Source of the DNA: Mycteria americana
Taxonomy: Eukaryota > Chordata > Aves > Ciconiiformes > Ciconiidae
NCBI RefSeq assembly: GCF_035582795.1
Contig: NC_134383.1
Span: 1,743,501-1,807,500, forward strand
Direction of reading: 5' to 3'
DNA: 64,000 nt
Part shown: positions 20,341 to 64,000 of the stretch, in pieces
Layout of the letters: each line of letters opens with the position of its first letter
Numbering within the stretch: position 1 is the stretch's first letter
Notes under the pieces: generated by a model
What the model saw: only the letters and a program-made list of their open reading frames with translations
Database searches by the model: none
What the model was told of the DNA's origin: nothing
Translations under genes and position numbers: made by a program

Positions 20341-20344
20341 TGCT

Positions 20345-20637: not shown

Positions 20638-20661
20638 CTTGAAAAGCCACATGGCAGTTAC

Positions 20662-21898: not shown

Positions 21899-21900
21899 TC

Positions 21901-30792: not shown

Positions 30793-31120
30793 CTTTTAGT
30801 TGCTTTATGCCTTGACTCCCCAGCTGTAAAAAGGGTTTAATGACACTCATCTGGGTCTTGTGCATATACATCTTTCACGACTTAGCACAGGGACTATCTC
30901 TGTAGGTAAGTCAGTGTCAAATACAACACAGTGCTGGTTTCCTTAGCACTACTGCAATACAAATAATAATTATTATTTCTGAAGCGTAATTGTCATTGAG
31001 TCTTGACCTGGGATTTTTAGCTACGTATTGGATCTGAAGAAATTCTTGGAGGAAGACTGATCCAGGTGGAAGTGCAAGCTACTTCTCCATTGCATTTGAC
31101 ACAAGGTGCTCTGGCAATGG
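30793..31120 (+). repeat. Element A, copy 3 (truncated third unit)
   Basis: It matches copy 2 up to CTGGCAATGG, where the sequence changes from B (TCCATCACTC) to unique DNA (CCCCTTTCC). This defines the right boundary of the duplication, about 380 bp before the ZP-mucin poly(A) signal. Confidence 0.92.
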
Positions 31121-31500: not shown

Positions 31501-31506
31501 TTTATT
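31501..31506 (-). promoter_or_regulatory. Candidate poly(A) signal of the ZP-mucin gene
   Basis: AATAAA on the minus strand, about 337 nt after the predicted stop codon (31843-31845). Confidence 0.5.
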
Positions 31507-31842: not shown

Positions 31843-31994
31843 TCACAGGCCATGGATTTCTCCAAGTTGTGGATAGCATATGTTTTTGGTTTTCTGTCTA
31901 TGATGCAGCCAAAGGCTTATGAAAGCACTGCCCAAGACAGCAAAGCCAGTAAGGGATCCCAGCAGAATGGGTACCAGCATAGCAGAATCAGGAC
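31843..31994 (-). CDS. ZP-mucin gene exon 7 (transmembrane helix, tail, stop)
   Basis: Acceptor TTACTTCCAG. It encodes MLVPILLGSLTGFAVLGSAF plus ISLWL, then a basic stop-transfer stretch and a short tail to a TGA at 31843-31845. Confidence 0.83.
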
Positions 31995-34900
31995 CTGGAA
32001 GTAAAGAAAGAAGTAATCAAGCAGTGAACAGTGTTAAGAGAGGAGGGAGAAGAAAGAGAAAGTTAAACTCCCATTCATCTTTATAGCATGCCAAGCAGGT
32101 ATGGCTAAGTTTCTGTCCACAGAGTAGTCTGAATGGGTAGTGCCTTTTCAAACACACTACCTTCTTGCCATAAGATCCCAGCAGTAAATATTCCTTGCAC
32201 AAACAAGTAAAGACACAAGAATTTAGGTAACTCTCAGGGATGGTACCAGTGGATTTAAGAAGTCTCTCATGCTCATGATGTGCCAGGTTCAGTGTCACTC
32301 CTTTCTAATAGATGGACAACATCTAATTAACATTAACCAGCTGCTGTATTTCACCTATGAACAGAAATAAAAAAGAAAATGCTCCTGCCTCATGACCAGC
32401 CTCGTTCTGCACCAAATGTTCCTAAGTTAGATTTTTGTCCAGTTACCTGTGGATGGTGTTTCCTTGCTATACCAGATAACTACCTCTAAATAAGGGGACT
32501 CTTCCCAAAGCTCAGTAGAAAAAATGACTGCATTGCTCTTTCATTCTAAAAGCTGCAAAGCTAACAGAAAAAAATATTTAAAAGGAGGCCCCTATACCCT
32601 GATTCCTCCCATCTCATCTCACCTAAAACCCAGACACCTGAAGGAAAGAGTTAGTGGATGTCTCTCACAATTATTTGAATGGCATTCCTCATCTGCAGTC
32701 AACATGTTTCACCAAAATACTGCAACATGCAGGACAATTCTTTTCATCTAGAGGACATTCTGCCTTATTTTTCTTCCCTTCTCCTCCATCTAAAGCTTCA
32801 GTTCCTGCAGAGGATACATTTGGCTCCGCCTCCTGTCTGAAAGTCTGTCGGATCTGATACTGATTAACCATCGTGTTTGTGATTTAGGAAGGCCAAAACA
32901 AAGATGAGGAGTTATTAGGATGTAATCTAGTCATACCAGATGGCTGTCAAGAAAGTTGTTAAAAGTGTACTGTTTTTCTTACAGCAGGAAAAGTCAAACA
33001 GAAACTTCTGCAAGAGAGAGACAGAGAGAGAGAAGAAAAAAACAGGAGACCCACCTTCCACAGGTTTATATAGAAACCTGTTCTTCATTCTCAAAACTGG
33101 ACCAAATGAGATCAGGTTGTGCAGGTTTCCATAGCTGTTCCTGTCACTTGGCTGGAGGAGTGGCTCCGCACTTTCAAAGCAGTCCTGGGAAAGACATATG
33201 AAAAACATTTGAAAGCATACTGGTGGTGCCTGAAGAGAATCTCCTACACTAGCGACTGTGTGAAGTCCACAGCAACCACAGTGCTGATCAGAGCAGGTCT
33301 CCTCAGATTCAGTCTTTGTCCAGCTCTGCTGTCATTCCAAAAAGTGAGTTGCCTAACTCTTGGAGCAGCCCATATGTATATCTCCATTCCCTAACTTCTT
33401 TTCCCTAGGGATTAGCACCTATTGCTACCATTGCATATCATTAATTCATCTTCCAGACTTTCAACAAAGGGATTGACCAGATATGGGATGATCCTGATGT
33501 GGTGACTTTGTTACAGGAGATGGCAGAGTTCTTTCCCAGAGAGTGCAACTCTCTTTTTAGGCCCAATGGTTGTGTCTGCAGGCCAGCAAGTACTCTTAGA
33601 GCAAGCAGGGCATATGCAAGATGCAGACATTCATCCTTCACATGCCCATGCAACTGATTTTCTAATTCCTGCCAAAGCTTCTTAAAAGCAGGCTCAGCCT
33701 GACTGGCTGAATTTTCAGAGCTTTTCTAGCTCTACTGTGCAGCTCAACCACTCAAACTTTCATGAATCTCTCTTCATCCATCTCAAACACTTCTTTGCAC
33801 TACTTCTGTAGTGCTGTGCCTTTTAAATCTACCGCATGGCCTATGGGTAAGTATGAGACACTGTGCCAAGCGTTTCACGGAAGTCTTATCCCTGAGCCCT
33901 CCAAGCTTGTGGAAGCCTGAAAACTTCCATATCCCAGATCCAGGACAATCCAATATAGAGATAGATTTGAGCCCTTTCACATAATTCTGCAATGCAAAAT
34001 TATATAGCTCTGCTGAGCCTTTTCCTTGCGATTCTCCTATAAGGTGGCTACTTGCTTATTTGTTGATATGCTTCTTATGTTGATTACACAAAGCAACAGT
34101 AAATTGCTTGTGGTCATAAAGTGAAAATAAAGCACTGTGAGCTCAGTTAGCTTAACCGAGAGTAGAAATTGAGCTGGGTCTTTAGGAGACACAGACTATG
34201 CAAGAAACAAAGAAGGAACTGTATGAGCTGGAAGAAAGTGGAGCTCTATAATCTACCATCAAGGTTCTTTATTGAATCAGCTGTACTCGCTGGAAGCACC
34301 AAATATTTCCAAAAGTTCCTTAGACCAGTGAAAGCGGACCCATCCCACGTACCTGTTCACACCCTGTTTTGCCATGCAGACAGACATTAAGCTCACAGTG
34401 CAAATAGGCCACTGAATGATTCAGCATCTGGAACAGCTGGATGGTGAAGCTAGCAGCTCTGGACTTACTGCTCTGCAGTAACTGGATGTGTCTGCATTCA
34501 AATGGCAACCTGGCAAGGACAAATGGCAAACAGTTTCAAATTCCAGCTCTCCCTGACTAAAGGCAGGGAAGAGGGGGATCTGCTGACACAGGTCTGCACA
34601 AGTTCTAAGCCAGGTACTTGCATCTACAGAGTCAAACAAAAATCCACAAAATGTGAGCGTCTCAGGCTGTACCTGTCCCTGCTGTGGCGGCCACAGTCCT
34701 AGAGCAGCAGAATTGTTTCTTGGAGGTTGATTTTGCTACAACCATTAAAATGGCTGCTGTAGCGCGATAATCATTCCCTGACCTAGACAAATTCAAAAGC
34801 ACTGCAGAGGTGATCTCCCACTATAGCTGATATGAAAGCTCTTTTACTGATGACAATAATGCGTAGCACTTCTAATGCACATTTCATGCCCCAGTGGTTT

Positions 34901-37900
34901 TACAAACTTCAACTAATGAATCCTTCAGTTTCTCTGGGCTCAACCCAGACAGGTTAGCCAAGAACAGCTGTGAAATGCTGATGGGGAAATGGAGGCCTGT
35001 GGAGAAGCCTGGCTCCCATCCTTGGACTGCTCTGCTCCTAGGCTGTGCTGACCCCTAGCAGGAAGTGCGCGAGGATGCTGTGAACCTGACATCTGTGACA
35101 GCGCGGCGTGGAGAAGCCGGACTGCTTACTTACACAAAGCAAAAGGTGAAGGGATATTTTTTCCCTGAGGGTTCTTTGTCTTATCAAGCCCTTAGTATTA
35201 ATTATAAGGCAGCTAAGGGACCAGAGCACTCTCAGACTCATTCTTACTGCTTTGAGCTTACTCTGAACTCCAAAGAGATCAGAGTGCAGCCACCGGATAC
35301 AAGAGAGAGGGTCCTCTAAGGATCAGCCCATTCCCAGCCGAGGCCCAAAGAGCCAGGTGAAGCTATGCCCATCCCTGCAGCTCCGTATCTGACCTGCGGA
35401 ACAGGCAGCACATCGCGCCTGGTCCCCCTGGGCTGGCAGAAGGCGTCACACAGCATGACCGGATCTGGAGCACGGGCTGGCTGCTGTTACTCTGCACAGT
35501 GATTAAAGCCAGGAAAGTCTCCTGGGAAGGTGCTGACCCTTCGAGCTCAGGGCCTGCTTCTTCAGGAGGGCGCAGGCTCATCTGCACAGTGTAGTTACCA
35601 GAGCCGCAGACATCATCGCTCACAACTGCAAGGCTTTAGGGAAAGAAGGAAAAAAAGCTGAGACCCAGCTAGGCTCCACAGCCTGTTAGGAAGAAAGCAG
35701 CATTAAGATGAGTTTCCTCAGTGAAACCAAATAGTAATTTGAAACAAATGAACAACATGTAGACCCTGGCATGACAGAGCCTCCCATGATCAGAACCACC
35801 TCCTGCCTCTCTGCACAGTCAAATCATTTGAACTGAGGGGAACCTGGCAGTATTTTACTGTATGGGAACATCTACCTTCTTTGCTAGTGCATTTGATAAC
35901 TTGAGCAATATCAAATGTCCCCGCTTGCAAAATTGCATGTAGATTGTTTTTGGGAGGAGAGGCGGAGAGTTGAAGGCTATTGTGAAAAAGAAAACTAGGT
36001 CTGAAGGTCAGTATTAATATCTGAAATGTGAAAAGGCCCTTTTTTTTTAATGTGATGTCATTGCTGAATGAACTAAGTGTTTTTAAAACCACAATACAGA
36101 GTACCCATGTTACTGAGCCCATGGAGCAATTTGGATATTAACCCCTGCTCCTTAAATCACACAGCATAAATATGCAACAGCAACTACACTGAGATAATTA
36201 CCCATTCAGAATGACAGCATCTGACTGCAAAACCCTCCTCTGATGTGATTCACTCAGCAGTGCACTGGGCTCCGAATCCAGCAGTGTTAGAACAGTTACT
36301 AAGCCTTCAGCTGCTTCTTCTTTTCCTTTGTTTGTTCTAACTGTCTTCTCTGTCTCTGTGTTCAAGAACAGCATCTCAGATTCTCCAGTGTTTGCAACAC
36401 CCAGCAAGGAATTCCCCTGTTGCGTAAGCACTACCAGACTCCGAGAAGAATGTGAAGGGCTCTCTGGGGTTGGAAGGAACTGGATTAGATCTCTGGCTAG
36501 AAGCACGTCAGCATCATTGACAGCCACTTTATTGAAGACAGCTGACTGATTAGTAACTTTGTTTACGAGCCTATTAGCAGAGACAGAAAATGCTTTTGTT
36601 GTAGATGGCCCAGTGGCATGCATGTCAGGGCTAGAATGACCAGTCTCATGTTCAATGTTATCTTCCAGTGATACCTTCTCCAAAGGGCGTCTTGCTGATG
36701 CCTGATGTGGTGAAGACACAGGTGCCTGAGTGAGCAGCTGGCTAGCAGTGGCTGCATCTCCTTTCAGTAACATGTCCTCACTCTTCCCCATTGATGTAGA
36801 GACCACAGTTGATTTGTTCACTCTGGCAACTGTAGGCAGCACCATGTTTGGATCAGATTGGATAGCTGATGTTGCCAGCAGAAACGCTCTTTTATTTGTA
36901 AGTGAAGTAGTGATATAACCTTTCTTAGCTGCAGAGAGAGAAGTCATTGCTAATGGAGACTGTGATGTAGTCTGTGTCAGTTTAGGCTGTATCTCAAGAG
37001 CAATAATAGATCCTGCAGATGGTTGTACAGGAGTTAAAACACCGTTATTCCCAAGAACTGCTGTGGGGGGTTGCTGTGTCCTTATATTAAACATGGCTGA
37101 CAGAGATATGCTTGTTCCCAAGAATTTACCAGTTCCTATTTTTCTTGCACTTGTGCTGATTTCAGTTGGCTTTGTATTTTCTCCCATGTTGGCCTGTGAG
37201 AACAGTTTAGTAGGGGCTTGATGGATTTGGTCACGTTTCATGGCTGATAGCAGGGGAACATGTGTAGACGCAGGTGAAGGTGGGCTTGCAGGAGAGTTGA
37301 TATACACCCTTGGATGGGTAATTGCAGCCAGAAGTTTCCCAGAAACTGTTGTTTTCATTTGGACCTTTGTTGAAAATGGACTATGCGCTGGGGCTACTGT
37401 TGGTGTCTCTGTCATTATAAAGGGCTTAGGCACAATGGGAGTAAATTCCAAATGTTTAGTAAGATAAGGTTTTATAGAAGTGGTGTGGGTTTGTGCTGCT
37501 TTAGCGCACTCAGTGGCTCCTCCTGAACAGGCCGTGCTGGCCAGTACCGAATCTTTCCGATCATTTCCAGCTGGAAGTGCTGAGAAAGCTGATGACGTGC
37601 TGGGGACAAACTGAACTTGTGATGGCAGCCTTTGAAGTGACTCGGTACTTAGGAAACTTTGCAATGTGGACTGCAAAGGCATGATGCTTGTGAACATCTT
37701 TAACGGGTATGTTATGGTTCTAGCTGAGTGCAAGGTCAAACACTCTGTGCATTGTGCACGGACAGAGGAAGGTGTGCTCACTAAGCCTTGGTGATGGCCA
37801 GTAGTTTGCAGCATTAGCTTCTGACTGTGCTGAACCTGATCTACAGCCCCTGTGACAGCAAACGGAGATTGGGCAGGCATTTGAAAATCAGGGAGTCCGT

Positions 37901-40900
37901 TTGCTGACCGTAAAGGAATTACAGAAGAAGAATGTGGCTTTTCAGTGGTGAAAAATACTTCAGGGGAAATACGGAGGCTATGCTGTGGAGACACCACTAA
38001 CGGTGGCACAGCGGAGGTGAAAGGCTCTGCTAACATACCGTTAAGTAAAAGCAAATCAGTCCCCTTGGCCTCTTGGGAACTGGGAGCAGGCACCTGCATC
38101 TCTTCAGGGAGCCTGTGCAGATGCATGGCCTGCACTGTAGTGCTAGTCCTCATCCGTGGGTCCAGCAAATGACTTGATGTTGAGGTAACAGCTTGAAACA
38201 AACTAGTGATGTCTGTATAGTTAGGATTAGTTAGTACTGGCTGAGAAGTTATTTTTGTTTTCTCTGCTTGTTGGTTAGATGCAGTAGAGAGAGTAGTTTC
38301 AGGCCTCAAAGACTTACTAGTGGGATAAGAGGAACTAGTTTTCATTGGGATATCATGGCTGCTTTCAGGGGTACCCAAATTCAGATCTTGCTTGTTTGTG
38401 AACAAGAGGGCAGTTTTGTGCTCATCTTCACCCTCAGGAGAGGGTACCATCTGTAAATCCGGTCTGTCAGTGGGCAAAAGGATAAATACAGGCTTAACCA
38501 GAATTAAGCTAGGACTCAGATTTTGTAAGTTTGCAAGGTCCAGCGCTGAAGAATTTGATGCTGCCAGGATTTGCTGAATGGAAACCAGACCCCCAACACT
38601 GGTATTTGGGAATTTTGTAGGTAGAGAGGAATCTTGCAGGGGCTGCAGGCATATCATGCCATTAGTACTTTTAAGCAGGAAGGACAAGTACGGGGATGAT
38701 GGTAGCACTGTAAGTTGATCACCTCTAAAAGCACTGAGGTTTTTGGTAGCTGCATCATGTGACATACCAAACCGCTGCACTAGTGCTTGTGCCAGATATT
38801 CTGGGATCTCATCAGAAACACTGGGCACCACCGGTTCAGGATGTGCTGTTGTTGAGCTGGACTGGCTTCCCTGCGCACGGAGTGAGGGCAGTTTTGAAGC
38901 AAAAGCTGCCAGGCTGCCAGGTTGCTGGATCTGGAAGGCTGAAGGGGCAAAGCTGTGAAGAGGAACTTTCTGGCTCCCATTGTCATGCAGTCCAGAGGGG
39001 CTGAGGACTGGGCTGGCTTGTGGAGTCAGTGGGGGAGAACCAGTTTTACCTATCTGTTGTGGGAGACTTTTCTTTCTCTTGGAGTCTTCCACTGTGCTCA
39101 TCTGCAGCATCATAGGGAAGGCTTCCTGAGATACAGGATGGGCAGAAATGCCTTGAACCTGAGACCCAGAACCAGTAGACATGGATGAAGTTGGTACGTG
39201 AAGTCCTTTCTCAGCAGAGGCCGGGATGCCCATTAGCTGCAATCCAACGTAAGTAGGAAAAGATGTACCTGGTGGCTGAAGCCCTGCATGAACAGAATCA
39301 AAAGTGCTTACAGGTTGAAGGGCTGTGTTCTCAAAGGTAGACGTACCTGGAAAGAGTGCAGATGTTACTCCTTTTAGCTCTTTAGTAGTTTGGGAAAGTT
39401 TTAATGTGGAAATCCATGATTGGCTTAATGAGGATGAATTAGCAGAAGCCTGTGGGGTCTCAGGGGATCTGAATTTTTCAGGTTTACTTGTCATCATCTG
39501 ATGATCAGTATCTCTTTGCAAAACTAGAACTGTGATTTCTTGAGAGCTCCTATTGGTTTCTTGGGAAACGTGTTGTTTAGTACAGTTGAGAGTCCGGGAC
39601 AAAGTGAGGGGCTGTTGTCTATCAGTTGTGCTAATGGGCCCTTGAAATGGAGGTGGAAGTAAGTCATCATGAACTAGAGCTTCCAGATGCATCAATAGTG
39701 AAGAAGAATGTACGTTGCCTTGTGGGAGTGTCTGAAGAGCAGGCAACTGAGTCGGGTGTCCAGAACCATTTATTACAGCTGTTGTTGAGTTTCTGGCTTT
39801 ACTGCCTGTTGTTTCTTGCTTCAGAGATAAAATAGGGGAAAACTGAACAGCATTTGTCTGTGTCATTCTGGAATAGACTGCGTCAAGGTCCCCTGAAGCT
39901 GGCTTTTGTAGGAATGCAGAAGTTGTAACTTTAGGATCCACACTCTGAGACTTCTTCAGGTATGCAGGTGTCACACCAGCTTTGCTGTCAGGCTGGACTT
40001 GTGGATTTGTGTCTTTTGGCCTTTTGCTAGTGGGAGGCATTCCTGTTGGTAACCAATCCACCCTTGCACTTTCAAGAGCAATCTTAACTCTGGTGGGAAA
40101 TGGAGATGCTGCTATTTCTTTTCTTGGAGGATGAAAATTTACCGTTGAAGTCAGAAGAGATGTTTTAGGACTTGGCACCTCCATCTGCTTGATAACAGGA
40201 ATGGAAGAGAAAGCTGTAAACTCGGGAGAGTCTTGATGTGTCCCTCCACTGAGAAAGGTCTGGGGCAGCCCAGCGCTAGAGCTGGTAGGACTGAAACCAG
40301 CCTCAGTAGTATTTTCTAGTTTTCCTTGCAGTGACCTGTCTGGCTGTTCCAGATGTGTGGTAGCCCGTGATCCTTGTGTGGAGACAGGGATGCTTATGCT
40401 ACTCAAGAGCTTGCTAGGAAGAGTGTGTCCATCCTGGAGTTTTAAAACTGCTGCTTCTGTGTGCAGTTGCTCAGGCACCTCCAAGTTTCTAACCAACTCC
40501 TTAGGCAGCATGGCTGTTCTTTTTGCAGCTGTCTCTGTATGGACAGGAATGAAGTCAGCTGTCGTTTCATTGGTAGGATCAACTGCTGGACTCTGAAAAT
40601 TAAAGGTCACCTCATCTGAGTTATCTTCTGTAATGGAAAACACTTTGCTGGGCACTGCGCTGCTCTCAGCTCTTGGTTGGGCTTCTCTAGAAAAGCTCAG
40701 GCCTACTACTTCACTGACATGATGTTCATTCCTGGAGGCACCTAATGAACAGAAAACAAGCCCTTTACCTATTCAGTTGTACATAACTTTTAACAGCTTG
40801 CAGCAGCACTTTGCAACAGGCTGAGTGGGAAGCGGAAAGTTAAGTGGCTACTGGCTGCATTCAGAACCATACAGGAGGGAGGATGGGCAGCTCTGGCACT

Positions 40901-42813
40901 GCCATTCTTACAGTGAGCTGCTATAAATCTGATCCTCTGCTGTTTATATTCAGAGTCATACGAAGGATGACACTTCATACTCCTGCCACACTGATGCAAA
41001 GCATTAACCAGCCAGAGAGGAACCCTTTATCTTAATTGTACAAGGATATAAATGACAGGCAAAGATGCAGGGAGAATGGAATCCTCAGGTTGCCCGAGGA
41101 CAGGTTGGTAGCTCTTTAATAGCAAAGCAAGAGCTTTGCTCACCTGGCTCTCCTTAATCACTCTTCCTCCCCCAATATCCCAGTCCTATAATGAGTTTCC
41201 TGATTCATACTGGGTGACCAGGCAGGACAAAGCTGGTTTGTTTTGTGGAAGTGACACAGCAGACAGAACATAGTAACTTCTCTACTTTTAACTTCTCAAA
41301 TCAAAAGCAGACGCTTTGTCATTTAAAGAGGCAGACCTATGGTTTAAAAGGCTATTGTTTTATCCACATTTTACTTTTTTCTGTCTTTCTATACTTTCCA
41401 AGCCATGGACTAAAATATTAATGTACTTTCCTCTCCAAAAACTTTTAAGCATTTTCCCTGAGGCACTGGCCAGCAAATACATATATCTAAAAGTTAAGAA
41501 GTGATTATGCTTTTAAGTGTTATGCATTTAAATTGTGTTTTTTGACAAAGGCAAAGCAGAGGTTTAGCAGTTTCGCATCAGATGAAATCCCTGAGGTTGG
41601 CATCCAAGTGTAGTGACGTAAGAGGAGATCACAACTTGTCTGTGGTCATTTGGAGAACCAGTACTACTTTCAGTCAACAGTGAACAGGGTAAGCTAATCT
41701 AAGGGAACCCAAAAAGCTGATATAATGCTAAAAAAGAAATGGAAGTTAATGGATTATGAAGATTGGTATGTTAAATCTATAAAATATTTTGAATTGTGGT
41801 TTTGTATAAACAAATGAAACTCCCATGGTTTAGCCCCAACTCAGCAAAGCACACAAGTGATCTGTCTATAAAGACAAGCACTTACTGAATCAAGATCTTG
41901 TATAAAGAAAGCAGTGTAAATATGCACAAATACACCTTGCAGAGGGACAAGATAATTTAAAAAAACATAACAAACAAACCTCACAAAAAGAACAGAATTA
42001 CTAATTAGGTGGAAAATTCTTTGATACCATCCCCCCAAGTTTATCTTTACTGAACAGTCTGCCTGAAGACCCAAGACTGCTTTTATTAGCCAAGTTAATT
42101 TTATGTACACTTGCAGTGTATGCTCACAGGCACACAATAAGAGGTAGAAAGCAAAGACTGACTGGTTCCCTTCAATGAGTGACAGCAGCCCTAGGAACTC
42201 ATTTGAGGCATGACAGCATTACAAACTCATCATTGATTTCATGCTGTCAGAAATATTTGGCAGGACAGCTGTTCCCAAAGAAAATGCAGAACAATGTGTT
42301 ACTGCATGGTGAAGAGGGGAGCCCATGCTTAATGTGATAAACAGTGGTGCCTGGAAAAGTATATTCTGAACAAGGCTTCAGCAGACAGGAGCTTGATTCT
42401 CAGTTCTGCTATAGACCTACTCTGTGAAAAGTGACTCTATTTTTCCTTTGCTTTCCCCCACCTGAAGGGGAAAGTATCTTCTTTGGAGAATGGACTGCCT
42501 CTTAGCTTGGGTAAGGAGCACAGCTGTGTCCTGATTAGGGGCCATTAATACTCCCACAACAGAAACCATTTAAACCAAATCTTGAGCCTTACAGCACAGC
42601 TGCACAAACAGAGAGAAGTTGCTCCTTCATCTCATTGTTGTCACACACCTGAGACTGACGGCACAATATTTAGCATAGTTTTTCTGCTCACTGATAATAG
42701 AGGAAAAGAAGGCAGAAAGACAGCAATTGAGATTAGAACAAAACATATCACTCACCAGATAAATCCAGTAGTCCAGCTGCAATCAGAATAAAGATAGGGA
42801 ATTTTTCCTGCAT
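31843..42813 (-). CDS. Unnamed mucin-like type I membrane protein with ZP-C domain (complete model, 7 exons)
   Basis: Joining 42756-42813, 36202-40741, 35876-36000, 35394-35625, 34353-34509, 33055-33184 and 31843-31994 gives one frame of about 1,797 residues with matching phases. Residues 1 to about 21 are a signal peptide (hydrophobic FPIFILIAAGLLDL). About 21-1533 is Ser/Thr/Pro-rich and mucin-like, with many N-X-S/T sites and few Cys. About 1575-1715 is a ZP-C subdomain with its Cys set (SCCVTPSASP, AYLHCELNVC, GCEQDC), followed by NLISFGPVL, which resembles the external hydrophobic patch of ZP proteins. About 1753-1778 is a membrane helix, with the tail HHRQKTKNICYPQLGEIHGL. No ZP-N half is recognisable. 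ZP modules mediate assembly of extracellular filaments, so a surface or egg-coat-like glycoprotein is inferred. I do not recognise a named gene. Exon 3 is the weakest. Confidence 0.82.
33055..33184 (-). CDS. ZP-mucin gene exon 6 (last ZP cysteine and hydrophobic patch)
   Basis: Acceptor CTTTCCCAG, donor GAAG|GTGGGT. It begins DCFES, giving the final C-x3-C pair with exon 5. It continues through NLHNLISFGPVLRMKNRF, placed where ZP proteins carry their external hydrophobic patch. No clear RxxR furin site is seen. Confidence 0.8.
34353..34509 (-). CDS. ZP-mucin gene exon 5 (ZP-C, second part)
   Basis: Acceptor CCTTGCCAG, donor GAACAG|GTACGT. It encodes AASFTIQLFQMLNHSVAYLH and CELNVCLHGKTGCEQ, the most diagnostic ZP-C signature (F-x-F-x(n)-V-x-L-H-C-x-V-x-V-C). 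Confidence 0.88.
35394..35625 (-). CDS. ZP-mucin gene exon 4 (ZP-C, first part)
   Basis: Acceptor AGCCTTGCAG, donor CGCAG|GTCAGA. It encodes NYTVQMSLRPPEEAGPE, then ITVQSNSSQPVLQIRSCCVT and AMCCLF, the central beta strands and cysteines of a ZP-C subdomain. Confidence 0.85.
35876..36000 (-). CDS. ZP-mucin gene exon 3 (linker; tentative)
   Basis: Between GACCTTCAG (acceptor at 36001) and GAAG|GTAGAT. An alternative acceptor at 35977 (CACAATAG) keeps the same frame and is 24 nt shorter. It encodes LQLSASPPKNNLHAILQAGT and a single Cys. It is chosen because it alone links exon 2 (phase 2) to exon 4 (needing one base). It may hold a degenerate ZP-N piece or just a linker. Confidence 0.5.
36202..40741 (-). 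CDS. ZP-mucin gene exon 2 (giant 4,540-nt mucin exon)
   Basis: Acceptor TGTTCATTAG at 40742, donor AATGG|GTAATT at 36201. It is open for 1,512 codons without a break, and the frame continues past the first GTG at 40655 back to the acceptor. The composition is rich in Ser, Thr, Pro, Gln and Val without a clean tandem repeat. A segment at about residues 660-785 is less mucin-like. An in-frame stop lies immediately after the donor, so either splicing occurs there or the product ends as a secreted mucin. Confidence 0.88.
40742..42755 (-). other. ZP-mucin gene intron 1
   Basis: A 2.0-kb intron between the signal-peptide exon (GTGAGT donor) and the giant exon (TTTTCTGTTCATTAG acceptor). I see nothing else in it. 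Confidence 0.75.
42756..42813 (-). CDS. ZP-mucin gene exon 1 (signal peptide)
   Basis: The ATG at 42813 opens MQEKFPIFILIAAGLLDLS, a classical signal peptide, ending at TCTG|GTGAGT in phase 1. This joins exactly to the phase of the giant exon 2. No upstream in-frame alternative is needed. Confidence 0.82.
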
Positions 42814-42945: not shown

Positions 42946-42954
42946 CTTTATAAG
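42946..42954 (-). promoter_or_regulatory. Candidate TATA box of the ZP-mucin gene
   Basis: CTTATAAAG on the minus strand, about 135 nt before the predicted start codon. A start site near 42915-42925 would leave a 5' UTR of about 100 nt. Confidence 0.45.
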
Positions 42955-43171: not shown

Positions 43172-43708
43172 AAGGAAGAGTTAAAATGCTACCTTGAGTA
43201 CTGTGTGCAGTTCTAGGCCCCACCATTTTCAAAGGATGTGAAGGTCCTTGAATGCATCCAGAGGAGGGCAACAAAGCTGGTGAAAGGGCTGGAAGGAATG
43301 TCCTACGAGGAGTGGCTGAGGACTTTGGGTTTGTCTAATTTGGAGAACAGGAGGCTGAGGGATGACCTCATTGCTCTCTACAGCTTCCTCAGGAGGGCAC
43401 ACGGAGAGGGAGGTGCTGATCTCTTCTCCCTGGGATCCAGGGACAGGACACGTGGGAATGGTTCAAAGCTGCATCAAGGGAGGTTCAGACTTGACATTAG
43501 GAAGCACTTCTTTACTGAGAGGGTGGTCAAACACTGGAACAGGCTTCCTAGAGAGGTGATCAAAGCCCTGTGCCTGTCAGTGTTTAAAAGGCATTTGGGC
43601 AATGCCCTTAATAACATGCTTTAGCTTTTGGTCAGCCCTGAAGTGGTCAGGCAGTTGGACTAGATGATATTTGTAGGTCCCTTCCAACTGAACTATAATT
43701 CTAATTCT
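43172..43708 (+). mobile_element. CR1 LINE, 5'-truncated 3' end
   Basis: About 535 bp that translate on the plus strand to the C-terminal end of the CR1 reverse-transcriptase ORF. This includes VLECIQRRATKLVKGLEGM, then LRRAHGEGGADLFSLGS and VVKHWNRLPREV. It ends in the typical CR1 3' tail (GATGATATTTGTAGGTCCCTTCCAACTGAACTATAATTCTA, with an ATTCTA-type terminus). An in-frame stop replaces Trp near 43220, so this is a dead copy. It supports an avian (or other sauropsid) origin and lies between TTC12 and the ZP-mucin gene. Confidence 0.92.
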
Positions 43709-47405: not shown

Positions 47406-50400
47406 CTGAAAAGACAACAGAAGAGTTGCTGGGGGAATATAAGATGCCTAACAATAAAAGTTTTAAGCTTCCACTGCTCTGCTATACCCCATGCCCAAAC
47501 TCTCAGGGATGTTTAGTGTTACATTCAATAAATTCCTCCTAAAGTAGCATGAGAAACAGAGTTTCTAGATTACTACTCCCCACAAAAAGGAAAATGAAAG
47601 TTCTAAATAGTACTTGACAATTGTTCAAATAGGTGACATTTCAAATTAACAAAACTAAGAAAATAAGGTGTTTCCATTTTATATCTCTGGAGTGTTTTGC
47701 AAATCTCAGAGCAGATACTTTCTCTATTGCTCATTTGGGATCTCCAACAGAAGCAAGGTACTGAAACTTTTGGAACCTAAGCATTATCCCTTGCTTTCTG
47801 CTGTGGTTCAGGATGTATATTAACAAGCTGAACTCAGTTCATCTGTCTGGAATGCAGTTCAAGATAAAGTTGACAGTTGGCAGCTTGCTAGAGCTTGGCA
47901 TACTCTTGGCAGGCAGCAGCAGACATTCTTTGCTGACATTTATACTTTTGTTTTGCTCTCATTATTGCTCTGACCTCTACAAACTTATCACTCCTCCTCC
48001 TTCCATTCTTCCAGCACAAGTAACATCAGAAAGCAAGGAGCTTTCTGAGCTCCTTGAAACATGTTAAGACAGACAACTAACAACAAAGGAACCCTAAAGC
48101 AGAACTGTGGGGACAGTACCTCAAGTGGGAATTCTAGTTGGAGGAAGTGTGATAGATTTCATGGAGTATTTATATCAACTAATCATCTGTCCTGTACCTG
48201 TTTGTTCTACAAATAGAATCAACTTAACACTGGTCAGCTTTTCAAGAATTATCACCTAATAACAACCAGGGGAACAATAGCTCTTTCACAATACCTTGGT
48301 TCAGCGACACAAAGCTTCCCCAGAGCAATTGCTGCATTCTCCTGCACTAAAGGTCTTGTAGCATCACCACCAGCATGTTTCAACAAAATCATCACAACAT
48401 TGGAATTCAGTAAGGATGTCGCTGCTCCAGGAACTACAAGGCACTGGCCAAGGCAGAAAGCAGCATTTCCCACAATCATTTCATCCTCTGAGTCCAAGAG
48501 CTTCAGCAGCACATTGAACCCTGGGAGAAAGAGAGATTAACTGTACAGACTGCACACAGATTTGTTCAAGTAGCACTGATAATTTCTCCTGTCTTTACCT
48601 AAACTCCTAGAGAGCAAGCATTGTTCCATAGCGGGCATTTTTCAAGAAAACCTGGAGGAGCAAGGGAATTTCATAGCAAGGTTCAGGATCCAGGATGCTG
48701 TCTCAGTTTCACCTGCCTAGATGCCTTTCTCACAAAACTGAATCTACACCCTAAGATGTTCTCTAGCATGGAGCATGTGTTTCTGCATTTGTTTAATATT
48801 TCTCTGAAAGTGAACATGCCACCTTTGCTGCTTGCAGGATCTTGCACTGGCCTCTCACCCCACCATACCAGCAGGGCAAGCACAGAGTAGAGCACTTGCA
48901 GTGCCAAGCTAAATGTGTTAAGACAGAAATGCTGTTGCGGAAAGAATAGCTGAAAAAAGGAACATAAAAAAGCTTTCTATATATCCTTAGCTAACATAAA
49001 ACAGCTCAGCTCATCTACTTCCATAACCTGTACTAATGTACAGCCACAGAGTATTTTCTCTATACTCTTGACACAGAGTTGTGTATCTCTTGCTGGCATC
49101 TGTAAGCAGCAGCAACATCTCAGGCCACAGGATCTAGAAACATTTAGACAGACCGCTTTCTAAATAAAATACAGCCACGGCTTTCACATGCAGGAAGTTT
49201 CCTTGGGGGTTGCATAAGTTTGCTTTGGTTTTCTTTCATGCTCCCATCTGTTCTTCCAGATCACATCCCACCTTTTCTGCTGCAATAAGATCTTCTGAAA
49301 AAGCAGTGCTGCTTCTGACAGCAACAGTGGCTGGAGCAGAAGCTGAACTAAGTGGCCCAGCTGGAATGCAATTTAACATCATGGGACTATAGCTTGATTC
49401 CAACAGGCTCCTAGCAACAGGGCAATGTCTGGGTTGGCAAACAGACATGACAAAAATAAGAAATAGTGACTTCTCAAAAGATTAATACCCAGAGTTTTGG
49501 TGGAAAGATTGAGAGTGAAGTGTTATTGCTAATTTGAGGAAGTGAAAGCTTCATCTACAGATGACAGTGAAACTAATACGGGGTGTACAAAAGGAAGATG
49601 ATGCTCTGTGAGGTTTTTAATGAGTGCAAATCCTTAGGGTTCAAGTTGAACTACAAGAGCTGACAGTTTCTTGACAGGTTCAACCATTTAGATAAAACTT
49701 AAGTATTCTCTGTTGTAGCTACATTAGCATTAATTGAACCTGGATTTTAAAGCAATCCAAGTAGTGTTATACTGCACGACTAGAGCAAATATACTCAACA
49801 ATATCCTAAGACACCTGGTCTGATATCATCACTCTGTCTCCATATCCATTTCCTTTTAATACCAGGCCAAATATCCACATGTAAATTGAAGGAAACTATA
49901 AACAGCCTCAACCTCTGGAAAACAGATGTCTAAATGAAGTTTCTTACTTTAGTCACTAACTTTGGGAAATACAACCCAATTCAGTTACGGTTTACAAGCA
50001 CTTTTTTCAAAATATACATATTTCTGGCTCTGAGAAAGCATACCAAGCCATTTTACTGAAGTGCAGTTTCTCTAACTTGGGCTCGTTATCTGATGTGCCT
50101 ATTTCCGTCCACACACAGAGCTAAGGCTCGTTAAGCACTATTTCAGGAGGTAAAAGAGCACATTACTCAGAAAGCATGGCCAAAGTCTTGCAAGAGTAAA
50201 ACCCAGTGTTCAGTTCCATTCTAGAAGGGAAGAAAGTAATTGGATGATACTGAGATTAACTCTCTGCATTCAGTCTCTAATTAGTGAAGTTGTCACTTAC
50301 TTTTATCTGACTTCACTAGATCTTCTTGAGCTTGTCTATTACTTCTGGTGCAAATGGAAAGGGTCTTTATACCATAATTGGATGTGATCTGTCCTCCAGC

Positions 50401-53400
50401 CTAGATTTGATTAGAATAAAGCATACATTAACAAACATACAGTTCATAACCCAACTTACTCAAGGTTACAGAATGGCTTAGGTACCATGGAGATAGTTAG
50501 GTATTCCTTATGCCTAACCCCAAATACCAAAGTAAGACCTTTGTAGAGTATGTATCTCAAGATGAACACAGGCTGAAAATGTCACAAGAACCATCTCTTT
50601 CCTGCCAGCAATGAACATACAAAGTTCCCTGAATCTCTGGAGCTCAATTCCTTTCAAACTATTAACGCCTCTGATGCTTGCTTGTTACAAGAGCCAAGCT
50701 GAGTGCCACAACCTTTTCCTAGACTAATTTTATCTGCATCATAGCAAATCTGTAGAATCCACATCAAGCTGGGTAGACACACATTCTGTTAGATACACAG
50801 ATATACAGCAAAACAGTGACTACAGATTAACGTATGTATTATTTAAGGAAAAATTGTTCCCAAGCTTGATTCAGCACTCACTGATAATCAGTGGAAAGGG
50901 CTCCACTGCTTTTCAGTGGTCCAAATTAGATCACACCAATTTTAAGCTTTAATCTTCCAACTGGGCCTGCAGTAGTGGATTCTTGAATTTGCAAGTCTCT
51001 GCAAGCAGAGCTGTGCACAGGCACCTGGCTTATACAGAAACAACTGAAAAATCTGGGCTATGGACCAGACTACAGAAGGCAGTCTAGTCTCCAAACTGGC
51101 TACCTATCTTAAAATTAAACTTGACAGCACTGTTACAATGGACAACACAGATGCAAACACATGCAGCCAGTGACTGCACAGGTCTTTCTCCAAGGGAAAG
51201 GAGGCTAAACACAGGAGCAACTATGGTTTTCTTAAGGGACAATACAAGCAGAAATAAAGTTAATTTTGTTAAATTAATTTACTTTCAAGAATTTAATCAT
51301 TTTCTTCACCACCCCTCTTTTCACTACTTCTTCTACCGCCGAGGAGGATGCTGGCAGGATGCGACTTAGCACTCCAATGGCTCTCTTAATTAGAAAACAG
51401 TGAGAGAGAAGCAAAAAAAAAAGTTTATTTGCCCAGACAACTTTAAGGAATTGTCAAATGATTTTGTTTTTGCAGAATAAACCCAAAAGTAATTAAAGGA
51501 GACATTTACAGAAATACAACAAAGAACATCTTTAGGACATGGCTTTTTTATTGCTTACTGGAAACTGAACTCAGCACAGCTTCAAAGACTCAGTGTACAG
51601 AGAGATGAGACCAAACTGAGATCAGGACAACTCCCTTTATGTTGATTTAGTGAAACAAATTCCTAGAAAGAAACCAGCCCAGCACTTCTGGTCTTGAGTC
51701 AAGTGAAACAGATCAGAAAAATTCATGTGAGCTCAGAGCCGAACGGACTCTGAGTCCACATCTGTTCCTACCCATTTGCCTTGAATAATTGCTATCTGTG
51801 GGAATTATACACCATTAATAGGAGTACAATCTCCTAGGTATGATTCACATACAAGAATTGTAAAAAGAAACAGCTGCTAAACACCCACATTTTTCTTGCT
51901 CCTTTGCTTCTAGACTGTTTTTTTTTTTTAGAGAGTTTTATATTGAAAACCATCCTAAGGATGAAATGATTTGTAAGAGCTTCTGCTAAGTACCTTTCAA
52001 GAGAACATTGAGAACCTCTTGCATCAAACAATATAAAAAACTGAATAATATAAGTGGTATATTATTTCTTTACTACTAATAATTATGAATGTTTTAGGCT
52101 TCAAAGCCTAATGTACAGACTTGCACAGGGCAGCAGTTTGCACTGAAGCGTTCAGGTCAGGTCAGCTAATACAATCTTTCGTTAGTCCATAGACATCCCA
52201 CTTACTGTCACAATCCTTTCATCCTTATCCCTGAGGAGAGACATGCACCTGCCACTTATGTCCACAGCAAAGTACTGAAACAACAAAGTGAAAAACCCAG
52301 GTCCAGCTGATTGCTGGGAAGTGTTAGAGCAGCAATGGGTTAACAGACAAAGTACTCTACAACAAAGAATCTGATGGAGATCAGGGAGCACATGGCAGTA
52401 AGTTATAACACTTCAGCACCCAGATGTAACTTAAGAAATTCTTCCTAATTTTGGAGTGTGCCAAGCATCTAAGAATACCCCATAATTGGAGACTGATGCC
52501 GAACAAAAGATTTATACCACTATGGAAAGGTACTGTATGTGCTTTACACTGTATTTGTCTCGTAACTCGGGGTGGGGGGGGGGGGGGGGGGGTGGAGGAG
52601 AAAATTTTGTAAATTTTTTTCACTTTTTACCTTACTTAAATTGTCAACTACCCTTAATAATTACCTTAAACACCAATAAAAATTAAAAATTAACGGAACA
52701 CTAGCAAAATCCAAGGTTGGCAGCCTTTAAGTGCTTCAGCATGCTTGATGTGAAAGAGGGCTCTCAATCCATCTAACGCAGTCAAGCTCTTTTTCCCTGT
52801 ACAGACTGCAAGGTCACAATATTCCACGGTCATTCCCTCACCTATTCTATTTGAATGATCTGGTATGACTTCAGTGACTTGCATCAGGCCCATTTACAGT
52901 GACAAGGGAGAAGGATGCTCTAACTGCTCAAGCAATTCTGAATCTCTGAGGAAATGATTATAAGAACACTACTACCAAAGAACATTCACAGATCTTGTAT
53001 ACCTGGATGATCACATTTGGTTCAAGCAGTAAGTTCATTATTAGGCCCAGCACTGCAAACAAACAATCCTGGTATTTGGGTGTGCTGACATCAAAGTATT
53101 CATCCTGCGTACAAAGGAGAGAAGAGTGCAATCAGTTCAGAGGTTTGGAATATGCACTTCCTCAGTCTTCTGTGTATTTACTTACATGGTGCATCAGCGT
53201 TCCCTGATGCACCATGAACACAGAAGGAAGAAAAAGTCCCATGAGCACCAGAGCTAATGATGCCTTTTTGATACAGATTCGTTCTTGTGTTTGTTTCACT
53301 TTGGTATCTAAAGCTGCAAGCTCCAAACTTCTGATGTTTAGGCAAGATCCTTTCCCACTCTCTGAATTCTTTAGTTTCCAAGGACTGAGTTCATACCACA

Positions 53401-56400
53401 TCCTTACCCTGAAAGGGGCCAGTTACAATAAGGGACCACTCACTCTCCTCCACCCAGCTATCAATCCACAACTTATGTGAACAATGGACCGCTTTGAGAC
53501 CTTTATCCAACTATCAGATTTGAAAGATCTCAGTCAAGGGTTCAGAGCTGTTAAGGGAGGCAGACAAACATGATCACACAAGTGCCATTTCCACAGGAGA
53601 TAGGGCTGAAAACACTGTTCTAGGGAGCTGTTAAGTTTCTTTACCACAAGCTTTAAGCATGCTTGCCAGCACTCTCTGCACTCGGCCATCTGCATTCGAA
53701 TGACTACATCTGCACACAGATTCCCCATGATGCCAATGCAACGGGCAAGGGCTGCCTGGTTCACCAGCTTGGCAGAGGTCTAAAAACAGAAGAGTGGAAT
53801 AACAAATGAAGAACGAATGACAAGGAAACAACAACTATGTGTTGCTATCCCTCTGGCAATGGAAAATGTGATTCCAGAATCTCTCTCACCTATGTTAAAT
53901 CCCAACTGTCCAAAGTTTGCAAGTCACTCTCATTTTCACAATGAATCTCCCGATGACATTTTAAGTCTTGGGAAAAAGTGACTGGATTCTGTGGTCCCTA
54001 ACCTCAGACCATGAATATTTCCTACTATCACTTACTTAGGTCACAGACCAGAACAGCCTCTGCTGCAGCTGTAATTCCAGTAAGGTATGTTCAAAAGGAG
54101 AGAGCAACAAGCACTGTAAAAGTGCTGTAACTATTGCATTGTCTTGGTGCTCGTTTGGAGAAGTGGAAGTATTTTACCTTCCAGCTGTATCTACTGTTCT
54201 GCAACAGAACCAATCTTCCCTATCATCTTCCCTCTTCCTGAGGACAGGTTTCTGTACCAACAGTATTGTAAGTTTGTAGTTTAAATAAACGATAACCAGG
54301 AAAGGGATCTGAACAACTAAACATTTTTACCTTGTGACCTAATGTCATCTCTTCACCCTGATCTCTCAGATTAGAAACAGAAAAAGTCACTATCCAAGAT
54401 ATAACCAGTTGGTGACAGTGGATTAAAGTCACATTAAGAAGAGCGTAACACAAAGCTGAGGGTGAAATCCTGGCCTCACAGATTACCAGTGCGAATCTGC
54501 AACCAAGTCCAGCATTTTCATTGAATATAAAACTCGTCACGTGTAGAAACCAAGCACTAAGTACTAGAGCCTGAGAATATTTTCCAGAGGAAAGTGTATG
54601 ATAAAACTGGATTTCTTATGCCTACAGAACTAGGGACACAGTAACTACTGTAGTTCTACAACAGAGGGGTTTTGTCTAGGAACAACTGGCTGCAAAACTG
54701 GAAAGAGTGGTCATAAGACATGTTACACAAAAGTAAACCAGAAATACAGAAACTAAGATCTTTCATACCAGTAAGTGGGTGAATAAAGGTAAAACACCTG
54801 TGGAAAGCATGACACGGCACTGGGTTCTGAACCTGTTGAGGGATAAAGAAAGCCATATTTGGACACTTAAAGCTTTAGACGAAAATCACAGATAAAGGCA
54901 ACACAACAGCAACATAAAGACAGGTAAACATCAGTCAGCAAATGTACCCTCACAGCAAAGGCAGCCAACAGCGTCTGTCACTAGCTCATTTAGTACATTT
55001 CAAAGTACAACTTTATAAGAAAGAATGAAGAAATCTAAGTTACCTTTCCTCTTCAGTTAAATCAGATAGTATGTTCATGGCACTGCTAGCCCTGGCATCA
55101 GTGCTGTTGACAAATGTCATCAAAATCTGCAGCCATCTGTTATTTAAAAAAACCCAAAATTTATGTCAGCTTTGGTTTAATTATTAAAGATCAAAATTGT
55201 ATTTTAAGTGCACCAACACAATTTATAATCTTAAACTCCTTTGTGTTCAGTAGGGTTTTGACCAAGCTGGATATACTAGGCCCTCCAAACATACTCAGTC
55301 ACCTAACTGACATTAGAACAATATTTTGGCACTAGATTCTCTCGCAACATTGTCCCTCTTTGCACAAGTACAGTGATTTTAGCACATGTACCAATTTCTG
55401 TCAGCATTAGAACATTTCATCAGCATGTAAGCTTCACAGACATTTGAAGCTAAGCTGCTTTTCTGCTGGCAAACATCTTGGGGACAGATAAGTAGAATGC
55501 AATGGTCAGGACCAAGAACACCATCAGCACAGCCCAGTACTGAACAGCTTCAACAGATTGTAAAGGCCTGCAGGGAATGTCAGTGTTGATGCTTGCATGG
55601 CTTAAAAGGACATGCTGAGCAAACCCAACAGTCTTTGGAGGGGTTTAACTAAAAAGCTTTATAGTAGCAAAGAAATAGTAATCTCCTGCCTGAATAAAAA
55701 GAGCATCATACCATTCACCCTTTGAGCTTTTGGAATAGTGTGTGCTTGTGGCTGTGGGATTTGAACTGCATGCAATTCACAGGACTTCAGACTGTGAACC
55801 CATAAGCTCTGCCAAACAAGTACATCTGCAGAGACGTGCTGGGGTTTCCACATGCCCCTCTACTGAGCTGAAATTCTCTGCCACTCTTCTCCAACTTTGT
55901 AGCACAGTGAGAGAACCTATAGTCTCGTCTGTTTTTGATGACAAGTCCAACTGCCGAGAAGCTCAGTATCTGCAACTTTACCTTCTGAACATCCTAACTC
56001 TTTTCAAGCATTCAGGCCCAGGATCTCTTTCAGAAGTTGACAGAAGATTTTTCAGGCTCCTGATATTTCAAGCCACAGTAATATTATCTGCCTTTTTAAA
56101 GCATCCTCTTAGATGCGGCTCATTTCTTTAACCTTTCCTCTAAGGAAAAATGTCTCTGGATTAATGTTGTATATAATATAGTGAAGCATGTTCAACTGTT
56201 GGAGAATCTTTTCTGTTCATCCATTACTTCAAACCATGTAGTGCAAACCAGTAAATTAAAATTTCTCCTCTGCTTAACTCTAGAAGGAAATAGCAGGACA
56301 ATATGATAAAGGTAATAGACTGTTGTTTCTTTCTCCACTCAGGGAGTCATGGCAACACTGAAAAATCATAAATACCAATTACCAAATGAGGAAAGAGTCG

Positions 56401-59400
56401 CAGCTTGAAACCATGAGCTATTAAGAGACAACAGTGTAAGCTCCTGATTGAGTGCTAGACAAACACACACTTACTGGTTTAAAAAAAGGCAACTATGCCT
56501 CAAACTTACATGAACATCCTCAGGAATAAGCCCTTTCTACTTAGTTTCACAGTCATCTTCAGATACAAAGTTTACTATATAGTTTTCCCTGCACACCTAA
56601 CTTTTACTTTTGCTTAGCTAGGCCTATCCCTCAAGGATAGAGGTCTCAATGTCATTGTGTTCGTTTCAGAAAGGCTGTCACCTTGGTGCTAGTGGAATGA
56701 GTTCTGAACATCTGTGAACCCAGGCATTAAGGAAATTTTTCCGAGGTATAGTAGTGTTTATTACTTGGTTAGGTCCTGGTGCCTGACCAGCAGTCTCCTC
56801 CCATTCTCATTCTCCAAGTAAAGAGAAATTAGTGCCAATGTCTCCTTTTGGATCTCCGATACCCCAGAAGAAAGCAGTTTCGGCAGCTGTGCATTCACAT
56901 CAGGGTGAGTCAACAGAAGACGCTGATTTTCTTCTGAAAATAGAGAAGATCTAAGAGCAATGTCACACACAATGGCATCCCCATTACTCTTATAATTTTT
57001 TTTTCCTAGGTGCTGATTTAAGAGGTTTAATGTCTTTATTTCATCCACTAATGTGCTCATTCACTCTGATGTGTTCATCTTGAGTAACACTCCTGCAGAG
57101 CAATGGCAAGGCAGAACACCCACTAATCTTCTCTCAGCTCCATTACTTCTACACATACACTGGTGTTTGAATTTCTACTCTCCCTAGCAACACGCTAGCT
57201 TCTCGGGCACCAAGCGCTTCTTCAAAGAGACACCAGAATTGTGACTACAAAGTGCTCCTCACTTCTTCAGCTGCCTGCAAACTGCTAGGGCCCAGGCTGT
57301 TCAGCACAACAGTACACTGCCCTGCCAGGAACAAACACATAAGCCACACAAGCCTGCACATTACTCTGAATTTACTGCTAACTACCTATAGGCAGAATAT
57401 AAAATGTGTTTTCTCCTTACCTTGCAGCATGAATATTCTCTTGGGCATCAGCTGGATCCCATCATATACAAGTCACCACAGATGCTGACGCCAAGCACTC
57501 TGTATTTTCCTTGTGTGGCACTCTGCACCATTTTACGACCCGCCACCACCCCCCCAGACCATTTCTCATCTACGTGATTACTCTGTAGAAAGAGAGGCAA
57601 GGGCTACCTGCTCAAGGACTACTGATTGCGAATACCAAAGGAATTCAGCCTTCTATAATGGTACTTCTATAAAACTCTGCTTTTTGCTGGTCTAACTGCT
57701 TAAAAAAGACAAAGTGATACAAGTGATATTATCTTAAAAGCAGCAATAATCACAGGGAATTTACTTTCCACCCCTTCAGTAGATTTAAAATGCTCACGGA
57801 AATAGACTGGAAATTTTATCTCATGATGCACAGAACTGTCAAAATTGTGGTTGCTGCTAGCAGTATACCTCCAACACTTGCATTTGACCTGTAAAACTTT
57901 GTTTACAATAAGATCTAGACCCCAGTGCTATGGGAAAGCAATGTTCATGCCAAACAACAGTTTTAGACACAGTAAGTACCATATTAACAGTGCATTAACA
58001 ATGATTAATGTTGATTACATAGTTTTACCATTCCCAGCACAGACAGCTTGCCAAAGGACAAGAAGAGAAACAGACAGATCCACTTCAGCAGCGTTCTTTC
58101 TCTCTGCACAGAAGCCCCTAAATTAGAAACGTTAGCTCGTAAAAAGAGCAAAGGACAGATCAAACAATTAGCTCTTTGGCTAGGGAAATCAGCAAAGTCC
58201 CACAGAGATGAGGATCTGCCACATGAACACTTAAGCTCATAAGCTCTAAACCCAGCTCACTGGTTAAACATTTTTAGGACTATCAAACTTGTTTTCCAGA
58301 GGACTTCCTCTGAGACCAGATTTATGATCTACTAGCTCTACTCTACCCTCAACACACACAGACCCTATACGAGCATTACAAAGCACAATGCAGGTGATAA
58401 ATTCAGTTCTGCACTGAGGTAGTTGTGGATAGCCAAGGTGTAAAAACCTTGTGCAAATTTGGAAGTGCTTCATCTCTTAAGTCTGTTTACAGCCAACACC
58501 CAAAATACTGACAAAGCCTAAAGAAGTCTCTGTGCTGCAGTCCCACTGACAGCCTTAAAGAATAGCTCTCCTGCCCCTGTTCAACCAGATCATGCTGTTC
58601 TGAACCAACTTAGTTGTGCAAAATTTTCAAATCGCATCTTTTGTACGTCTTACTTGTTTCCATTATCTATCTGAACCTGACTCAAATATACATTCAGACA
58701 AGAGATGCCTCAAAGACAAAGTTTATAAAGCAATACAGATAAATATTAAATTTGGTTTTTGATTACTGAAACACAATACAACAGCAGCCAAGAAAATACA
58801 GCAGCAGAAGACAAAGGTCCCCAGAGGTGATCCTCTTCCTGGATTACAGGATTAGAGAGTTTCACAGGTTACATTACAGAGCTATATGGCCAAATATTTA
58901 GTGATGGCAAATTAATAGCACCAGAGAGTCTAGCCAGGTATACTTAAAGCAACTAAGTGCTTTCAGACGTTCTTTAATATTAAGGTTTTTTTACAAGTGT
59001 GCTCTCACCACAAGAGATAGGATAACTGTACAGAAATCGGAGACAGAAGCAGAAATTCATTAATTCTGTTCACTGCATCTAAGAGAGCACGTTTGTATAA
59101 AAGTCAGATATAAGTCAGTCCATTCAGACATTAAAATCTGTTATTACATTGTCTTTTGATCATTTCATCTGCATTTCAAGAGGTGATTGTGTTTCTTGAA
59201 AACAATATTTTCATTTCCTCATGCTGTAACACCCTACTGTTCTCCTTTGGAGAGCTCTTACCGTCTTACAATCTCGTTGTCTTTGAGGATACTGAACCCA
59301 TTGTTTGTTCTAAATAGAGTTTGCTCAGTGCCTGAAAAATTCAGAGATAAACAAATCAGCTCTATGATCCATCTGGCTGATGTATCATCGTGAAGGCAGA

Positions 59401-63259: not shown

Positions 63260-64000
63260 CTGAAATAAACCCAAGAGAGGCCAGGCAGAAGAATTAGAAT
63301 ACTTCAAACAGCTTCCACTAACTATTGTACAAACATTAGCTAATTAAAAAAAAAAAAAAAATTAGACTGCTGATTTGCCTAGCCATTGATTTCGCAGGAT
63401 AATTACCAGCTGTTTCTTAACTTGCCTTCCATCTCCTTGGAGTTTGTAACTTAGAATAAATTTAATAAAACAAAATTCAATACACACGTATGGATTATAC
63501 GAGGCAAGCAGAGAATGCAAAGCAAATGTTAACATTCTACAGTTATAAAACTGATCCCCCCCCCCAAATCAGTGCTTTTAAATAAAACTATGAACCCGAA
63601 TGCTTTTTTCCCCCACTTATTCTGGAGGAGCAGGGGTTCACCTGTGCCACATCCATGAGGGAGGAGACATGAAGACATGAACACTCCCTCAAGAAGGACT
63701 AGCCACAGCAGAACTAAAGCTGCCAAGGGATTCAGACACATCGATCAAGAGGGAAGAATTTACACCTGTAATGATCATCTTTGTGCAACTCTTTCGTTCA
63801 GTTTGTAAGAAGATTAAAACCCTCAGTCTGTACTGTCTTGTTGTTAACTCCTAGCCACAGTAAAAATTTACTGTTGATAATATGGCAGCAAAGCAGAACT
63901 CATTAATTCCTGGTAGTGGAGGACGGCCAGGAAAAATTGTTTGCTCCCTTTTTTAAGCCTCTCTGTAATGCAACATATATTGCCTTTTATGAAATTCACT
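63260..64000. other. TTC12 intron at right edge
   Basis: No further TTC12 exon is visible. There is an A run at about 63346-63360 and a C run at 63557-63565. The TTC12 5' exons must lie to the right of the window. Confidence 0.6.

Follow-up and report, generated by a model that had tools for sequence, protein, structure and literature searches.

A candidate standalone ZP-C domain at the base of a putative giant surface glycoprotein encoded between TTC12 and ANKK1

ZP-C was long believed always to come with a ZP-N, and the exceptions described in the literature used here are nematode proteins: according to PMC7456536, no isolated ZP-C was known before its nematode cases, five such proteins are counted in C. 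elegans (PMC7665627), and C. elegans is repeated as the standalone example in PMC9154058. These nematode proteins share a ZP-C without ZP-N with the protein predicted here (PMC7456536) but belong to another phylum, and the words "mucin" and "transmembrane" are absent from the main text of PMC7456536. The C. elegans protein LET-653 localizes and functions through its ZP-C, its ZP-N being inhibitory, and cleavage of its C terminus is unneeded for localization of the isolated ZP-C and promotes function (PMC7665627); its mucin-like part is insufficient for function (PMC4970718). LET-653 thus resembles our protein in having a Ser/Thr/Pro-rich region beside a ZP-C able to act in the absence of ZP-N (PMC7665627, PMC4970718), but it is secreted, contains PAN domains, ZP-N and a furin site, and has neither a transmembrane (TM) nor a GPI anchor (PMC4970718). 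Because of its secretion, its furin site, the promotion of function by cleavage and the insufficiency of its mucin-like part, we limit the analogy to ZP-C. In membrane-anchored form, ZP-C can dimerize without making filaments (betaglycan, endoglin) and bind ligands (betaglycan) (PMC7665627, PMC11865472). Uromodulin (UMOD) comprises EGF, D8C and ZP-N domains, the 586-RFRS cleavage site, an FRF motif and a GPI anchor (PMC7737619, PMC4755741).

Across gnathostomes, the DRD2 locus is described as defined by its upstream neighbors ANKK1 and TTC12 (PMC5900934), TTC12 and DRD2 are the genes flanking ANKK1, which is missing from some reptiles (PMC10492769), and conservation of the NCAM1-TTC12-ANKK1-DRD2 cluster has been described in 22 vertebrate species (PMC7177674). 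In the portions of text of these three papers used here, no gene is mentioned between TTC12 and ANKK1, and the figures of PMC5900934 draw intervening genes as gray lines. Within the 64-kb window, by which we mean the whole stretch of DNA analyzed, we observe a candidate gene at 42813 to 31843 on the minus strand, lying between partial matches to TTC12 (63262..48291) and matches to ANKK1 (11572..2686), with all three on that one strand. These flanks, named in an earlier note on this DNA, are borne out by alignment with human proteins as queries and, at the ANKK1 locus, by Pfam ankyrin and kinase domains. Mammals are not known to have a gene between TTC12 and ANKK1, and the new gene may, as the earlier note proposed, have been gained in sauropsids or lost in mammals. 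Tentatively, at a rough probability of 0.35, we read the new gene as encoding a standalone, polymerization-dead vertebrate ZP-C that forms the base of a giant glycosylated stalk, plays a SEA-like role as surface anchor or filament cap, and would be missing between TTC12 and ANKK1 in mammals. The literature on isolated ZP-C contains, judged by title and start of abstract, no vertebrate case among the matches listed, and open-licence PMC papers contain no description of the gene among the matches listed; a predicted, unnamed RefSeq or Ensembl model may well exist.

When its six coding exons are spliced together, the reading frame stays open over 1,758 codons and ends in a stop; all five introns run GT..AG. 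The features of the gene are given below in the direction of transcription, the two small alternative exons being candidates from sequence only.

42947..42952, minus strand: TATAAA, 139 bases before the ATG
42756..42813, minus strand: coding exon 1, with the ATG at 42813 and the signal-peptide-like MQEKFPIFILIAAGLLDLSG (by eye); donor percentile 99.6
42649..42690, minus strand: candidate small alternative exon, phase 1-1
40769..40820, minus strand: candidate small alternative exon, which requires the later acceptor 40731 in the giant exon
36202..40741, minus strand: coding exon 2, the giant stop-free exon, with 4,540 bases and 1,512 whole codons; encodes the stalk, rich in S/T/P/Q and free of Pfam domains
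35394..35633, minus strand: coding exon 3, which encodes a linker and the first half of ZP-C, including TVQMSL, the IHP strand
34353..34509, minus strand: coding exon 4, which encodes the second ZP-C half, including LHCELNVC
33055..33184, minus strand: coding exon 5, last ZP-C cysteine and the EHP-like LISFGPVLRM
31843..31994, minus strand: coding exon 6, TM helix, tail of ~20 residues with YPQL, and the stop ending at 31843; acceptor percentile 99.9
31501..31506, minus strand: AATAAA, 337 bases after the stop

Splice sites were scored with a Shapiro-Senapathy weight matrix. Ranked among the 556 GT sites of the region, the donors used by the six-exon model, five in all, fall at percentiles 90.6-99.6, and its five acceptors fall at percentiles 96.3-99.9 of the region's 875 AG sites. 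The start codon, the end of the stop and the in-frame GT..AG joining proposed in the earlier note all hold. Its seven exons are a different matter: the phases are compatible as it claimed, but six exons suffice, and seven are possible in that either of two optional exons in the first intron fits the phases. Likewise, the TATA box and poly(A) signal that it assigned to the gene are present as hexamers but count as weak evidence, because such hexamers are common here (TATAAA 0.34 and AATAAA 0.59 occurrences per kb per strand in the region).

The encoded protein would begin with a signal peptide and end in a short tail behind a membrane helix. A single strong TM stretch at residues ~1711-1738 passes our hydropathy cut-off of 1.6 over 19 residues, confirming the predicted helix, whereas the core of the signal peptide falls below the same cut-off, so that this element, signal-peptide-like by eye, is weaker than first stated. 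The stalk of ~1,510 residues is poor in cysteine and rich in Ser, Thr, Pro and Gln (residues 21-1534: S 13.4%, T 10.2%, P 8.8%, Q 6.5%, C 0.4%; S+T+P 32.4%), and 18 N-glycosylation sequons are found in the whole 1,758-aa protein. The threshold used by PTSpred is 40% S+T. Since S+T in the stalk reaches a maximum of 33 per 100 residues and no 6-residue word occurs twice, "mucin," the term chosen for this stretch in the earlier note, is too strong a label for a region that is only mildly S/T/P-rich. The stalk is degenerate and possibly O-glycosylated, and it differs from a classical tandem-repeat mucin.

Transmembrane mucins such as Muc13 resemble the predicted protein in having a signal peptide, a long stalk, a juxtamembrane folded domain, a TM helix and a tail, and in most described mucins the stalk lies in one large exon (PMC1552070). 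However, a mucin candidate requires a PTS domain plus VWD or SEA, transmembrane mucins have SEA or VWD together with a PTS region, and in chicken Muc13 several exons share the PTS (PMC1552070). Here, neither SEA nor VWD was matched by Pfam in the whole protein or the giant exon (PF00100 being the only family found), links to either domain were rejected for that reason, and outside ZP-C Pfam recovers no other domain in the 1,758 residues. The best PDB match of the giant exon, PAI-1 at E 0.11, was taken as chance and rejected as a relative. When the giant-exon protein was compared with viral contigs and with prokaryote genomes, four and five stretches, respectively, matched a pattern and none was confirmed; these searches are silent on conservation, because the collections hold viruses, bacteria and archaea. 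In the tail, YPQL at residue 1749 fits a YxxPhi-type sorting signal and could allow recycling by clathrin adaptors, weak evidence in that it depends on a single tyrosine. We also note HQRR at residues 1519-1522 (36234-36245), just before the boundary between stalk and ZP-C, a possible dibasic cleavage site that might free the stalk from its anchor.

As to ZP-C, PF00100 matches the C-terminal 225 aa at E=3.4e-6 and 27.6 bits, above the cut-off of 24.6; the whole 1,758 aa (23.9 bits) and exon 4 alone (E=6.9e-5, 23.4 bits) score just under it, and exon 3 scanned alone gives no Pfam match. Among solved structures, UMOD (E=1.4e-8) and GP2 (E=1e-5) are closest, and betaglycan (TGFBR3) reaches only E 1.2. 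The best alignments to uromodulin start in exon 3 at uromodulin residue 449, fully cross the exon 3-4 junction and reach just two or three residues into exon 5, so that the exon 3-4 splice is well supported and the exon 4-5 splice slightly; they offer no homology across the junction of the giant exon and exon 3. As we read them, C1593, C1651, C1656, C1663 and C1667 coincide with five of the six cysteines in the ZP-C of uromodulin, and the sixth is displaced (C1618). Our protein has additional cysteines at 1594, 1608 and 1609. In TVQMSL, M1551 and L1553 align with M460 and L462 of uromodulin, which are named as IHP residues (PMC7737619). On these profile and structure matches, the ZP-C proposed in the earlier note is real; its "diagnostic cysteines" are in register for five positions but not for the sixth. 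The likeness to UMOD and GP2 thus extends over the ZP-C sequence, these five cysteines, the IHP Met/Leu pair and an EHP pattern. In contrast to UMOD, the protein combines a giant stalk, a TM helix and extra cysteines with FQM at the FXF position, and neither ZP-N nor a furin-type site was found in it.

The EHP consensus is ..s.GPl... and the IHP consensus p..ls.t (PMC9692296). LISFGPVLRM, at residues 1689-1698, is the sole match to the former in the 1,758 residues, in agreement with the hydrophobic-patch-like segment described earlier. The pattern is loose, with 0.9 matches expected over the whole shuffled protein, and so only the position of the match counts; in that stretch of 48 residues the chance of a match is 0.024. 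Matches to the IHP consensus at 1512 and 1538 (searched over 1501-1580) lie off the aligned IHP strand and are too loose to weigh.

Features needed for filament growth were not seen. ZP-N gave no Pfam match in the whole protein (E up to 1), in the giant exon and 7 picked intron ORFs out of 21 (E up to 10), or in any of the 30 upstream ORFs with at least two cysteines, where two chance matches to unrelated families appeared (E 0.16 and 0.058); the power of these scans is limited, as the control finds ZP-C in exon 4 alone and misses it in exon 3 alone. At the position of uromodulin 553-FRF-555, where deletion of F555-A556 abolishes polymerization (PMC7737619), alignment places FQM (residues 1639-1641). 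No furin-type site separates ZP-C from EHP, as residues 1668-1720, between ZP-C and the membrane, contain no RxxR, RxKR or dibasic site; uromodulin is cleaved at 586-RFRS (PMC4755741). Cleavage by a single-arginine (hepsin-like) protease might still occur. Without a recognizable ZP-N, with FXF read as FQM and with no furin-type site, polymerization becomes doubtful; most cysteines of ZP-C and both hydrophobic patches are retained, as are the features linked to folding and secretion. The surface or matrix product suggested in the earlier note is supported as a probable glycosylated surface protein with ZP-C, EHP-like patch and TM helix, but weakened as regards polymerization into matrices.

A full, polymerizing ZP matrix protein, the direction in which the earlier note leaned, with ZP-N in unrecognized exons or in other proteins with which it co-polymerizes and with the stalk decorating the filament, is nonetheless the first alternative to consider, and we regard it as unlikely without being negligible. 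The retained EHP pattern and IHP residues and the proximity to UMOD and GP2 are what such a protein would have, and a distant ZP-N is conceivable from the layout of LET-653, where the mucin-like part sits between ZP-N and ZP-C (PMC4970718). Against it stand the FQM, the missing furin-type site, the lack of a ZP-N match in the protein or 37 neighboring ORFs (within the limits of power given above), and the signal-peptide-like exon that precedes the stalk.

The reading that we favor is a tethered protein that would not polymerize by itself. The pattern of kept and missing features suggests, if orthologs share it, a ZP-C locked next to the membrane: a folded juxtamembrane base held in the EHP-bound state, positioned where the transmembrane mucin Muc13 has its SEA domain. 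By itself this ZP-C would not build uromodulin-style filaments, with its ZP-N partner missing, FXF altered and EHP unfreed. The stalk would project outward and ZP-C would dimerize or bind a partner near the membrane, so that the protein would serve the glycocalyx or apical matrix as a spacer or anchor tethered to the cell. The sequence shows the parts and the missing motifs; surface location, glycosylation, the locked state and partner binding are what we infer from it. That the gene is genuine and encodes a type I glycoprotein that spans the membrane once, tethered and with a locked ZP-C, we consider fairly probable. If true, a vertebrate ZP-C that keeps the features of fold and secretion and lacks the three of polymerization would be a natural test of ZP-C alone, the ZP "module" would have been turned from a filament builder into a surface anchor or filament cap, and an unrecognized giant surface glycoprotein would reside inside the much-studied NCAM1-TTC12-ANKK1-DRD2 cluster.

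Somewhat less likely than a polymerizing protein is that the locus yields two products, with unspliced or alternatively ended transcripts stopping at the TAA at 36198 to give a secreted stalk, and the ZP-C form being minor or made from a separate short transcript. We observe that the donor of the giant exon overlaps this stop (AAT GGG TAA at 36198-36203), so that a retained intron would yield a secreted stalk lacking ZP-C, and that this donor, TGG/GTAATT at percentile 90.6, is the weakest splice site of the gene. The phases, however, fit the joining of the giant exon to exon 3, and we noticed no separate signal peptide that could serve a transcript of ZP-C alone.

More improbable again is that the protein works like betaglycan, endoglin or TGFBR3L, as a co-receptor whose ZP-C captures a growth factor at the cell surface. 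TGFBR3L, presumably a ZP-C protein of vertebrates that has no clear ZP-N, may serve as a vertebrate precedent for a standalone ZP-C. It is homologous to the ZP-C of betaglycan, a domain that in isolation binds TGF-beta and inhibin A (PMC11865472). These proteins are non-polymerizing and have a juxtamembrane ZP-C with a TM segment (PMC7665627, PMC11865472), and the near-membrane order of ZP-C, TM helix and short tail is the same in our protein. Betaglycan and endoglin, however, have an orphan domain and ZP-N (PMC11865472), and the sequence match is weak, the ZP-C being far closer to uromodulin than to TGFBR3 by the E values above. No orphan domain was found by Pfam in the whole protein, where ZP-C is the one domain matched, or in the giant exon (best PDB match the PAI-1 already mentioned).

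Finally, the giant exon offers a frame of 1,524 stop-free codons from stop to stop. The other two frames on the same strand contain 79 and 111 stops and the reverse-strand frames 84, 45 and 106, and the longest stop-free run in 200 first-order Markov copies, over three frames of one strand, was 284 codons. Chance comes nowhere near an open frame of this length. Codon usage, scored as log-odds with 978 codons from the two neighbor genes as the training set, placed the right frame first in two of the six exons, the giant exon not among them, and is uninformative, neither helping nor hurting the gene model. A decaying gene or an illusion of the gene model, that is, a relic with an accidental open frame, would be at ease with such codon usage but is hardly credible against this frame, six exons free of frameshifts and conserved ZP-C residues.

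The surroundings of the gene contain several repeats. An Rfam scan of the window recovered no family at gathering score. Just upstream of the promoter region of the gene, an ORF on the plus strand (43217-43624) resembles the reverse-transcriptase end of a CR1 LINE, and a 15-base tandem repeat (5.7 copies, 98%) lies between two TTC12 matches at 60998-61082. Between the 3' end of the gene and ANKK1, at 12341-31120, a 9.2 kb unit occurs twice. Its copies agree at 99.83% of 9,559 aligned bases and represent either a recent tandem duplication or an assembly duplicate. A third start of the unit extends over 337 bases (98%). Inside the unit we observe an inverted repeat of ~600 bases (82%), and each copy also contains a GC-rich 50-base tandem repeat, at 18728-18943 and 27950-28165.
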